NCBI GenBank assembly: GCA_019694755.1
Contig: JAIBBI010000038.1
Coordinates: 1-37,387 of the forward strand
Length of the DNA stretch: 37,387 nt
Direction of reading: 5' to 3'
From: Gemmataceae bacterium
GTDB lineage: Bacteria > Planctomycetota > Planctomycetia > Gemmatales > Gemmataceae
The notes beneath the pieces were generated by a model. That model was not told where the DNA came from. It saw nothing but the letters and a program-made list of their open reading frames with translations, and searched no databases. How positions within the stretch are numbered: position 1 is the first letter of the stretch; every line of letters begins with the position of its first letter. The position numbers and the translations under genes are program-made. Shown piece after piece: positions 1 to 5,738 of the stretch.

Positions 1-14
1 CGTAAACCGCCTGC

Positions 15-884
15 ATGAGCACGCACTTCGCCGACCGGCTCACCGAAGCCGTCTTGTGGAAGAACACCGCCCTCTGCGTCGGGCTTGATCCGCGCTGGGA
101 TTCCCTGCCCCGGCAGATCCGCGAACGGTACACCACCGACCTGATCGGCGCCGCGGCCGCCTGCGAGGTCTTCTGTCTCCGCGTGCTCGAATTGGTCGCA
201 CCGTTCTGCGGCGTCGTCAAACCGCAGAGCGCGTTCTTCGAGGCGTGCGGCCCGACCGGCTTTGCCGCCCAGCAGAAAGTCCTGGCCCGCGCCCGTGAAC
301 TCGGGCTGCTGACCATCCTCGACGCCAAGCGCGGCGACATCGCCAGCACGGCGACGGCATATGCCGATGCGGCCTTCGGCATCTGGGATGCCGACGCGCT
401 CACCGTGAACCCCTACCTCGGACGGGATGCCGTCGAGCCGTTTCTCTCTGTGGCCCGCAAGTCGGACCGCGGCCTGTTCGTGCTTGTCCGCACCAGCAAC
501 CCGGGGGCCGGGCTGTTTCAGGATGTGAAGAGCGGCGAGCGAACCCTTTACGAAATCGTCGGCGATGCGGTCGCAAACTGGAGCGGTGAGAATCCGGGCA
601 AGTGCGGCTACGGCGATGTCGGCGCAGTTGTCGGTGCGACGCATCCGAAGGAACTCCAGTCGCTGCGTCAGCGGTTGCCCGGCGTGTGGTTCCTCGTGCC
701 GGGCTACGGTGCCCAGGGCGGCTCGGCGGCCGACGTGCGTGCCGCGTTTCGGGCCGACGGCTTGGGGGCGATCGTCAACTCTTCCCGCGGCATCACGTTC
801 CCGTTCCAACCCGACGACGACGACTGGGAATCGAAGATCATCGCCGCCGCCAAGAAGAGTGCGGCCGAGCTGGCGATCAAATGA
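15..884 (+). CDS. pyrF: Orotidine 5'-phosphate decarboxylase (type 2)
   Basis: This cytosolic enzyme decarboxylates OMP to UMP, the last step of de novo pyrimidine synthesis. The 289-residue product has the long form typical of the type 2 PyrF subfamily. The catalytic D-x-K-x-x-D signature is visible as DAKRGD at residues 103-108, followed by IAST as in the family. An N-terminal CVGLDPRWDSLP segment matches the first substrate-binding strand, and the VPGYGAQGG segment matches the phosphate-binding loop. The ATG at 15 gives the expected N-terminus. The gene ends in an ATGA overlap with the downstream flavoprotein gene, so the two are probably co-translated. Nothing is truncated. The assignment is by family motifs and is considered firm. 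Confidence 0.96.
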   Translation: MSTHFADRLTEAVLWKNTALCVGLDPRWDSLPRQIRERYTTDLIGAAAACEVFCLRVLELVAPFCGVVKPQSAFFEACGPTGFAAQQKVLARARELGLLTILDAKRGDIASTATAYADAAFGIWDADALTVNPYLGRDAVEPFLSVARKSDRGLFVLVRTSNPGAGLFQDVKSGERTLYEIVGDAVANWSGENPGKCGYGDVGAVVGATHPKELQSLRQRLPGVWFLVPGYGAQGGSAADVRAAFRADGLGAIVNSSRGITFPFQPDDDDWESKIIAAAKKSAAELAIK

Positions 885-2207: not shown

Positions 2208-5200
2208 ATGGCGCCGCGATCCACTTCTCGAAAGCGACTGCGCCTGACTCCGCTCGAACCGCGGGTGACACCGGCTGTCAGTTACCTGACGCCCAACAGC
2301 GTCTATTCGCAGAACTTCAACGGACTGCCCGCGTCCGGCACGATCGCACTAGCTGATGTTGCGACACCCATTGACCTGTCGACCTCGCCGATCAGCGCGA
2401 CGGGAATGGCCACCGGCGACTGGTTCCTCCTTCGTACGGCCGGCACGACGATGTTTGCGATCGACGACGGCAACGCGACCGCCGGCGGCGCTCTGTCGTA
2501 CGGGCCCAGCGCGACTGCGGAGCGGTCACTCGGGCTGCTCGCGTCCGGCGCCGGCGTCGCGTCGGTCGGCGCAATGTTCACGAACAACACCGGCGACTCG
2601 CTCAGCCAGTTCACGATCACATTTGTCGGCGAGCAATGGCGACGGGGCGACGGGGCGGCCAACAAACTGTCGTTCAGTTATTCGCTCGGCGCGACCAGCA
2701 TCGCCGCGGGCACGTTCACGCCCGCCCCGAGTCTCGACTTCACCGCCCCCGTGACGACGGGAGCCAATCTCGCACTCGACGGCAACGCGATTGCCAATCA
2801 GTCGGCGGTGTCGGCCACCGTGTCGGGCATCACGTGGGCCAAGGGGCAGACGCTGGCCATCCGCTGGGACGACGTCGACGATGCGGGCCAGGACGACGGA
2901 TTGGCGATCGACGCACTCACCTTTACGGCCAGCCGCGAGTCGCAGGTCAACACCACGACTGCCGGCGCGCAGAGGACCACGCAGGGCGGCCGATCGGTCG
3001 CGATGGACGGTGCCGGCAACACTCTGGTCGTCTGGCAGAGCAACGGGCAGGACGGCAGCGGCTACGGAATCTATGGCCAGCGGTTCAACGCGTCCGGGGC
3101 CAAGGTCGATAGTGAGTTCCTCGTCAACACCTACACGACGAATGCCCAGATCAATCCGACCGTCGCGATGAACGCGGCCGGGCAGGCCATCGTGACCTGG
3201 CAAAGCTTCGGGCAGGACGGCGCGAACTACGGCATTTACGCCCAGCGGTACGACGCAGCCGGTAACAAGTCGGGCGGCGAAATAGCTGTCAACACGGGGA
3301 CCGCGAGTATCGAATCCAACCCGTCCGTGGCTATCGATGGCGACGGCGATGCGGTCGTGACCTGGATGAGCTTTTTTCAGGACGGCAGCAGTTGGGGCGT
3401 GTACGGCCAGCGATTCGATAACACCGGCGCGAAAGTTGGCAGCGAGTTTTTGGTGAACACCTCAACGGCGCTGGAACAAAGCTACCCGGCCGTCGCCATG
3501 GACCTCGACGGCGATTTCGTCACCGTCTGGCAGGCCAGCGGACAAGATGGAAACCAGTACGGCATCTTCGGCCAACGCTTCGACAAAGTGGGAGCCAAGC
3601 TCGGCGGCGAGTTCCCGGTGAACTCCACGACCAACGGCAATCAGTACCGTGCGAGCATCAGCATGACGGCGGCCGGGGACTTCGCCGTTGTCTGGACCAG
3701 TAACGAAGGCGATGGCAGCGTCGACGGTGTTTTCGGCCAGCGATTGAATGCGAATGGTGCAAAGCTCGGTGGCGAATTCGCCGTCAACACTTTTACCACC
3801 AACCACCAGTCGTTTCCCTCCGTGGCCATGACCGCCCAGGGCGATGCAATTGTCACGTGGATGAGCTTGGGGCAGGACGGCAGCGGGCACGGCATCTTCG
3901 CCCAGCGATTCGGGCTGAACGGGTCCAAGGTCGGCGACGAGTTCGCAGTGAACTCATTCACGACCGGCACCCAGGCCTATTCCTCCGTCGCCATCAACGC
4001 GCTGGGCGACGCCGTCGTCGTCTGGCAGAGCGCGGGACAGGACGGCGACAGCTACGGAGTCTACGCCCGGCGTTACGCGCCGCCACCTCCGGTGCCGGGC
4101 GCGGAGTTTATTGTTAATACGACGACGAAAAGTTCTCAACGGAAGGACCTGACGCGGCAGGTTGCCCTAGATGGCCAGGGCCGTGCGTGGGCCGTCTGGC
4201 ACATGAGTGCCGGCGGGGGGACAATTCGCGCGCAGCAACTGAGTTTGTCCGGCCAAAGGATCGGTGGCGAACTGCAGTTCTCAACGAATGCGTTTGGGTA
4301 CGCCCCAGCTGTTGCGGCCAATGCGGCCGGCGACGCCGTGATCGTGTGGGCCAGTTCCAATGGAAGTTTGAAAGAAATCGTGGGACAACGACTCAGTCCT
4401 TCTGGAGCCCTTATCGGCAGTCCATTTACTGTCACCTCAACCTCGTCGGCGCTATTTCTCGACGACCCGTCGGTCGCCATTGACACGGCTGGAGGGTTCA
4501 CCGTCGTTTGGACTTACCGCGATTCTGCAGTACAGAGCGATGTTTACGGCCAGCGGTACGATGCGACCGGCTCCAAGGTAGGCGGTTCATTTATTGTCAA
4601 CACATTTACAAGCCACCTCCAACAACACGGCCAGATCGCGATGGATGCCGCTGGCGATTCGGTCATCGTCTGGGAAAGCGGCTATCAGGACGGGAGCGAA
4701 TTCGGCATCTACGGTCAGCGGTTCGAGGCTTCGGGAAGCAAAGTCGGCTCGGAATTCCGCGTCAACACGGATACGTTGGGCCAGCAATTGTACCCTTCAG
4801 TGGCGCTGGATGCCGACGGCGACGCAATAGTCGTCTGGGAGACGACATCGGACATCGTCAGTGTCGCCGAAATTCACGGCCAGCGTTTGAGTTCCCTGGG
4901 CCTGTTAACAGGCCCGGAGTTCACTGTTAATTCCTATTCGACTTCGAATCAGCAATACCCATCCGTTGCCATGGATGCCGTGGGCAACGCCATCGTCGTA
5001 TGGCAGAGCCAGGGACAGGACGACTACCTCGACCCGGTCGAACAGAACTCTGGTGTTTACGGTCAGCGATACGCGGCGGCCGGCAATCGGATCGGTACCG
5101 AGTTCCGGGTCAATAGATACTCCACGGGATATCAAGCCCTGCCATCCGTTGCCTCGGATGCAAGCGGCAATACGATCGCCGTCTGGGAGAGTTTCTTGCA

Positions 5201-5738
5201 GGATGGCGATTCGACAGGCATCATCGGCCGCTGGCTGATCGGCCCCACCGTCGAGTCCATCCGCGTCAACGACGGATCGGCCCAGCGGTCGCGCGTGACG
5301 AGCCTGACCGTCACGTTCAATACGACGGTGACACTGGCACCCGGCGCATTTCAGTTAGCACGGACCGGACCGGGCAGCCCCGCGACCGTAACGTGCAATG
5401 TCGACACATCGGCCAGCACACCGACGCAGACCATCGCCACGCTGACGTTCTCCGGTCCGCAGACGCAGTTCGGCTCCCTGATCGACGGGCTGTACACGTT
5501 GGCCATTACGGGTTTCGCCTTCACCGACGCCGCCGGCGTCGAGGGCCTCGATTCGATGCTGAGCTTTCACCGGCTGTTCGGGGATTCCGACGGCAACCGC
5601 ACTGTCGACAGCACCGACCTGCTCGCCTTCCGACTGGCGTTTCTCGGCACCGGCCCAACCTTCGATTTCGATGGGAACGGCACCGTCGACGCGACCGACT
5701 TCCTGCAGTTCCGGTTGCACTTCCTGCAGACGATATAA
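2208..5738 (+). CDS. Giant exported repeat protein: LEPR N-terminus, tandem propeller-like repeats, dockerin-like C-terminus
   Basis: A 1176-residue protein that I predict is exported. The N-terminus is basic and carries LTPLEPRVTPA, the LEPR-type motif common on planctomycete surface proteins. Residues about 20-243 resemble a beta-sandwich found in bacterial extracellular proteins (GEQWRRGD, then WDDVDDAGQDDGLAIDALT). Residues about 245-1015 hold 14 imperfect repeats of about 54 residues, each built as VAxDxxGxxVVxW, then QDGxxxGIxGQRF, then KxGxEFxVNTxT. A PPPPVP linker sits inside repeat 7. Residues about 1016-1120 form another beta-rich segment. Two dockerin-type calcium loops follow at about 1125-1174 (GDSDGNRTVDSTD and FDFDGNGTVDATD). 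A GGAGG Shine-Dalgarno at 2194-2198 supports the ATG. The ligand is unknown; a role in adhesion or extracellular matrix is inference. Confidence 0.88.
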   Translation: MAPRSTSRKRLRLTPLEPRVTPAVSYLTPNSVYSQNFNGLPASGTIALADVATPIDLSTSPISATGMATGDWFLLRTAGTTMFAIDDGNATAGGALSYGPSATAERSLGLLASGAGVASVGAMFTNNTGDSLSQFTITFVGEQWRRGDGAANKLSFSYSLGATSIAAGTFTPAPSLDFTAPVTTGANLALDGNAIANQSAVSATVSGITWAKGQTLAIRWDDVDDAGQDDGLAIDALTFTASRESQVNTTTAGAQRTTQGGRSVAMDGAGNTLVVWQSNGQDGSGYGIYGQRFNASGAKVDSEFLVNTYTTNAQINPTVAMNAAGQAIVTWQSFGQDGANYGIYAQRYDAAGNKSGGEIAVNTGTASIESNPSVAIDGDGDAVVTWMSFFQDGSSWGVYGQRFDNTGAKVGSEFLVNTSTALEQSYPAVAMDLDGDFVTVWQASGQDGNQYGIFGQRFDKVGAKLGGEFPVNSTTNGNQYRASISMTAAGDFAVVWTSNEGDGSVDGVFGQRLNANGAKLGGEFAVNTFTTNHQSFPSVAMTAQGDAIVTWMSLGQDGSGHGIFAQRFGLNGSKVGDEFAVNSFTTGTQAYSSVAINALGDAVVVWQSAGQDGDSYGVYARRYAPPPPVPGAEFIVNTTTKSSQRKDLTRQVALDGQGRAWAVWHMSAGGGTIRAQQLSLSGQRIGGELQFSTNAFGYAPAVAANAAGDAVIVWASSNGSLKEIVGQRLSPSGALIGSPFTVTSTSSALFLDDPSVAIDTAGGFTVVWTYRDSAVQSDVYGQRYDATGSKVGGSFIVNTFTSHLQQHGQIAMDAAGDSVIVWESGYQDGSEFGIYGQRFEASGSKVGSEFRVNTDTLGQQLYPSVALDADGDAIVVWETTSDIVSVAEIHGQRLSSLGLLTGPEFTVNSYSTSNQQYPSVAMDAVGNAIVVWQSQGQDDYLDPVEQNSGVYGQRYAAAGNRIGTEFRVNRYSTGYQALPSVASDASGNTIAVWESFLQDGDSTGIIGRWLIGPTVESIRVNDGSAQRSRVTSLTVTFNTTVTLAPGAFQLARTGPGSPATVTCNVDTSASTPTQTIATLTFSGPQTQFGSLIDGLYTLAITGFAFTDAAGVEGLDSMLSFHRLFGDSDGNRTVDSTDLLAFRLAFLGTGPTFDFDGNGTVDATDFLQFRLHFLQTI

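Follow-up and report, generated by a model that had tools for sequence, protein, structure and literature searches.

Closest described propellers

The nearest solved fold to the protein analysed here, far above the other entries listed, is that of CylK from Cylindospermum licheniforme (PDB 7FH6, 7RON, 7ROO), an alkylating enzyme with the catalytic residues Arg105 and Tyr473. Its propeller (residues 250-654) is composed of seven blades of about 58 residues, with long internal loops over the outside and calcium at every blade junction, features that were called unique (PMC8916777), and catalysis also requires Arg105 of the N-terminal beta-roll domain (PMC8916777). For the phasing of one CylK structure, its authors found no suitable model. 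Bacterial propellers of the integrin-type FG-GAP group are also seven-bladed, sometimes occur in two tandem copies and carry one calcium motif per repeat (PMC3192720). In highly repetitive propellers, which arose by amplification of a single blade (WD40/WRAP, VCBS; PMC9218822), one chain contains similar blades, and blade counts in the WD40 group peak at 7 and 14 (PMC9218822).

Here we describe a protein of a Gemmataceae bacterium, encoded in a stretch of 37,387 nucleotides that was analysed as a whole (the window). As predicted from models of its repeat region, the core of the protein very probably consists of two closed seven-bladed beta-propeller rings in tandem. As a tandem seven-bladed propeller it is of a known kind; its blade family is unmodelled by Pfam and NCBIfam at their cut-offs, and neither gave a valid name for the blade repeat. 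While CylK combines one ring with an N-terminal calcium beta-roll, the window protein has two rings and an Ig/dockerin-like tail, with blades of 55 residues. Integrin chains align to the window rings at Z 26-28, but the blade sequence differs from that of the FG-GAP propellers, and no FG-GAP match was found in the window protein by a Pfam scan at E 1; likewise, Pfam gave no WD40 or VCBS match. Blade identity between the two window rings is about 44%, under the 60% limit of the PMC9218822 study. NCBIfam NF053835 (PDIAV motif-containing lipoprotein) matched the repeats partially, with 58.4 bits over three stretches (cut-off 90), and our literature search found no paper on this family. Both PDIAV_lipo, as a name for the repeat, and dockerin_GC were rejected for scores under the cut-off.

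Gene organisation and repeat array

The gene is flanked by a gene for a HI0933-like flavoprotein on one side and by an EAL-domain gene of the other strand on the other, and nothing in these surroundings points to a dedicated operon. The features of the gene are the following:

2208-5738, + strand: whole gene, product of 1176 aa (open reading frame listing)
2244-2276, + strand: N-terminal LExR motif LTPLEPRVTPA, aa 13-23 (sequence)
2277-2927, + strand: N-terminal region, aa 24-240 (Pfam scan and own-genome search)
2940-2960, + strand: lone SQVNTTT strand, aa 245-251, predicted outer strand closing ring 1 as a velcro (sequence)
2940-4076, + strand: ring 1, units 1-7, aa 245-623, predicted closed seven-bladed propeller (units, ring profile, AlphaFold2, CylK alignment)
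4077-4103, + strand: proline-rich linker APPPPVPGA between ring 1 and ring 2 (sequence)
4104-5237, + strand: ring 2, units 8-14, aa 633-1010, predicted closed seven-bladed propeller (units, ring profile, AlphaFold2, CylK alignment)
5256-5735, + strand: C-terminal 160-aa module, aa 1017-1176, Ig-like plus two-loop dockerin-like, reaching up to the stop codon (own-genome matches)
5580-5708, + strand: dockerin-like calcium-type loop pair, GDSDGNRTVDSTD and DFDGNGTVDATD (Pfam PF00404)

Fourteen units were counted in the product, starting at aa 245, 303, 358, 413, 468, 523 and 578 in ring 1 and at aa 633, 688, 739, 794, 849, 904 and 965 in ring 2, with a modal length of 55 residues (range 51-61). 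The preliminary description of the sequence had given 14 units of about 54 residues; the number stands and the length has to be corrected to the mode of 55. The landmarks that it had named were recovered, i.e. a lone QVNTTT strand ahead of unit 1 (as SQVNTTT, aa 245-251), a PPPPVP linker within unit 7 (aa 625-630) and a last unit lacking a clean EFxVN strand, since unit 14 passes into IGPTV with no closing EFxVN. Units 8, 9 and 12 had been proposed as the most diverged. The lowest profile scores indeed belong to units 8 (29.5 bits) and 9 (31.2 bits), but they are followed by unit 10 (38.9 bits) and only then by unit 12 (47.4 bits). The match of the ring profile to ring 1 starts slightly upstream of the SQVNTTT strand.

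The repeat pattern is not a product of chance, because with the repeat region as query more than 20 stretches were found in the own genome (best paralogue E 7.6e-97), together with relatives in other phyla. At the DNA level the units are too diverged for Tandem Repeats Finder, which did not detect the array.

Predicted rings and comparison with CylK

AlphaFold2 modelling of aa 241-1021, using an alignment with 29 relatives that also bear ring pairs, yielded two rings of seven blades for the 14-unit region (pLDDT 88, pTM 0.63). At this modest pTM for the pair, how the rings are placed relative to each other is uncertain; the value would be in keeping with a loose hinge between two rigid bodies. 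Ring 2 modelled alone, the more diverged half (61 rows), reached a pLDDT of 92.4 and a pTM of 0.92. VIA-align placed ring 1 (residues 2..387 of the joint model) on the CylK propeller with Z 44.6 and rmsd 2.1 over 361 aligned residues, and ring 2 (4..386 of its own model) with Z 42.0 and rmsd 2.5 over 355; overall, the CylK alignments had Z 42-45, rmsd 2.1-2.5 and 352-362 residues. The next structure for both rings was YncE (Z 29.5), among candidates ranked by Foldseek, which may have missed a closer fold. The top Foldseek matches of the joint model (LRP2, IFT-A etc.) are long multi-propeller chains with rmsd >19 and were not used. Structure prediction of the repeat region had been proposed as the check on a reading of two seven-bladed propellers (7 + 7), and this reading is borne out by the two modelled rings, each aligning over its full length with a solved seven-bladed propeller, and by the array lengths in sevens reported below.

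Searches of solved structures by single sequence, ring profile and blade profile gave nothing convincing for the repeats, so the likeness to CylK is one of fold only. As the ring and blade profiles fail to reach CylK at E 10, common descent is unsupported and we do not class the protein as CylK.

The nearest solved fold being an enzyme domain, the propellers might catalyse a reaction, as do CylK, sialidases and polysaccharide lyases, which would make the protein a cell-surface enzyme. Foldseek ranks lyases, sialidases and glycoside hydrolases beside lectins, and Pfam GH43 scores 37.4 bits across the repeats. However, no single stretch passes the GH43 cut-off, so the whole-protein score is a sum over the repeats, and a GH43 domain was rejected as the identity of the repeat. 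Moreover, CylK needs Arg105 of its beta-roll (PMC8916777), whereas Pfam found no N-terminal RTX-like domain in the window protein. A catalytic role is thus unlikely, and binding, either of a glycan or of a protein, would be the more probable function.

Ring boundaries and array lengths in relatives

The border between the two predicted seven-bladed rings is marked in the protein itself. The proline linker lies exactly behind the strands of unit 7. In units 1 and 8 alike, the opening VNTTT is followed by additional residues (QRTTQGGRSVAMDG and QRKDLTRQVALDG), which might be the mark of a blade that opens a ring; a paralogue on contig 302 begins its two rings in a similar way. An outer-type strand precedes units 1 and 8 and is absent after units 7 and 14, and a velcro arrangement, read from these strand positions, holds for both rings, with the first EFIVN strand of ring 2 taking the closing role there. 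That the 14 blades form one larger ring or are divided otherwise (e.g. 6+8) could be argued from the modest pTM of the joint model and from the 7+8 division predicted for another repetitive propeller (PMC9218822). Against it stand the linker position and the insertion shared by units 1 and 8, the full-length alignment of ring 2 alone to seven-bladed rings and the two separate spans matched by the ring profile (2922-4076 and 4098-5234), which make such a division highly improbable.

To the two-ring reading, array lengths in other proteins add evidence that is independent of any model. A blade profile was built from the 14 units and refined on relatives from the own genome, from related genomes and from a genome collection. 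Matches were obtained in 16 of the 59 related genomes searched, the own genome included, and the collection relatives belong, by record name, to Planctomycetota, Alpha- and Betaproteobacteria, Deltaproteobacteria, Chloracidobacterium and Saprospiraceae. Within the phylum, 40 of 149 genomes had a match at E 1e-20, the strongest of them spanning the ring profile almost end to end. Blades were counted in 47 open frames, which gave 81 complete arrays, i.e. arrays with no cut by a contig end, in 44 proteins. Exactly 7, 14 or 28 units were present in 69 of the 81 arrays, and multiples of seven rise to 73 if one missed blade is assumed for each gap of 100-150 residues, while multiples of five or eight did not occur (0/81); most of the remaining arrays had 6 units or were short fragments. 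Only multiple-of-seven arrays were found in 35 of the 44 proteins, for which the chance probability under random length modulo 7 and independent proteins is near 5e-22, a guide figure only, as some of the proteins are related, though relatives span phyla. In several relatives the seven-unit blocks are separated by spacers: in L064, PKD-type spacers lie between six seven-unit rings. L068 also has six rings, and the Caulobacter proteins L011 and L012 have three pairs of rings each. A total of 42 blades is reached by these differently built proteins (L064 and L068; L011 and L012), which may be chance.

Lengths in sevens are expected for a closed seven-blade ring and not for an open solenoid. Long, imperfect repeats in tandem, each with three or four short strands, are found in solenoids too, but an elongated beta-solenoid or fibre-like stalk of 14 stacked units is the least probable reading of all in view of these lengths, the spacer-separated seven-unit blocks of relatives, the strands that close the rings at either end and the confident ring models. 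With such strict sevens, ring closure can be tested simply and without a structure, an approach that is applicable to other repeat families.

Ring copying and blade conservation

Rings were compared blade by blade at all seven possible offsets. For rings of the same protein, offset 0 was best in 75 of 110 pairs, with a mean identity of 45% versus 38-39% at the other offsets; between proteins, offset 0 was also the commonest, but weakly. In the window protein it was best by a small margin (48% versus 43-47%). Whole rings have been copied in register in the blade family, in contrast to the single-blade amplification of the propellers in PMC9218822, a conclusion for which the window pair would not suffice by itself.

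The blade-connecting loop VNTxTxGxQxxP is one of the most strongly conserved segments of the blade (N 84%, Q 90%, P 73% in 616 blades), and its conserved N and Q are compatible with a CylK-like calcium at the blade junctions. Because of this conservation and the calcium at the CylK blade junctions, we infer by analogy that the loops of the window protein could carry a calcium staple, to which we give slightly less than an even chance. More tentatively, and with some doubt, we suggest that the blade family may represent a large, unmodelled lineage of calcium-stapled propellers of bacterial surface proteins, in which whole seven-blade blocks are copied and from which CylK/BrtB would have recruited its propeller. 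A widespread repeat family predicted to share the CylK shape offers a possible origin for the enzyme fold, and many unannotated surface proteins would gain a fold from the blade family.

Proposed role of the protein

We favour, with moderate confidence, a putative role as an exported binding scaffold, probably at the cell surface. In relatives, the repeats are accompanied by PKD, Ig, subtilase, RTX and autotransporter repeat domains, which are secreted or surface types, and the Ig, PKD, RTX, autotransporter and dockerin partners point to a surface location. Each blade would most likely consist, from inside to outside, of strands VAMD (a), VVVWQS (b), GIYGQRF (c) and EFxVN (d), and the conserved loop NTxTxGxQxxP would lead from strand d into strand a of the following blade. 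In each ring the EFxVN-type strand before the first unit would supply the missing outer strand of the last blade as a velcro. By analogy with CylK, the blade-connecting loops may hold calcium that staples neighbouring blades, and stapling of this kind would make the ring stable in the extracellular environment. A pair of stiff, adjacent rings could present a repeated face for binding of a glycan or a protein, while the Ig-like and dockerin-like tail would keep the protein at the surface.

N-terminal motif and C-terminal module

Most planctomycete members of the family carry an LExR motif close to the N-terminus (LEPRVTPA, LEDRTVLS, LESRINPA); all proteobacterial members inspected lacked it. 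In aa 1-60 we found no clear hydrophobic core of a Sec-type signal, and the Pfam scan gave no match in aa 24-240. In a genome that reuses its modules freely, the segment of aa 1-241 (2208-2930) is single-copy, as the own-genome search returned only the segment itself.

The C-terminal 160-aa module, on the other hand, had 132 matches in the own genome, 96 of them near full length. All 40 sampled modules were situated at the C-terminal end of their protein: in 38 the stop codon comes directly after the module, in one a single residue intervenes, and another is the leading copy of a tandem pair. Twenty relatives of the same family, order and class had 0-2 matches each (E 1e-10). The module represents a lineage-specific expansion of a C-terminal tag. 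Dockerin_1 scored 20.7 bits in the whole protein and 24.3 bits when the module was scanned alone (cut-off 22.9). No match to cohesin (PF00963) was found in the own genome, which is 97% complete, so that a cohesin-dockerin mechanism is unsupported here, and text searches on planctomycete dockerin-type modules gave nothing specific to this module. The module probably tethers or sorts the propeller protein, as seems to be the case for about 100 other proteins of the genome. It is also contained in open frames of 8146 and 8395 aa (L054; own-genome contigs C44 and C75), which are very large surface-type proteins.
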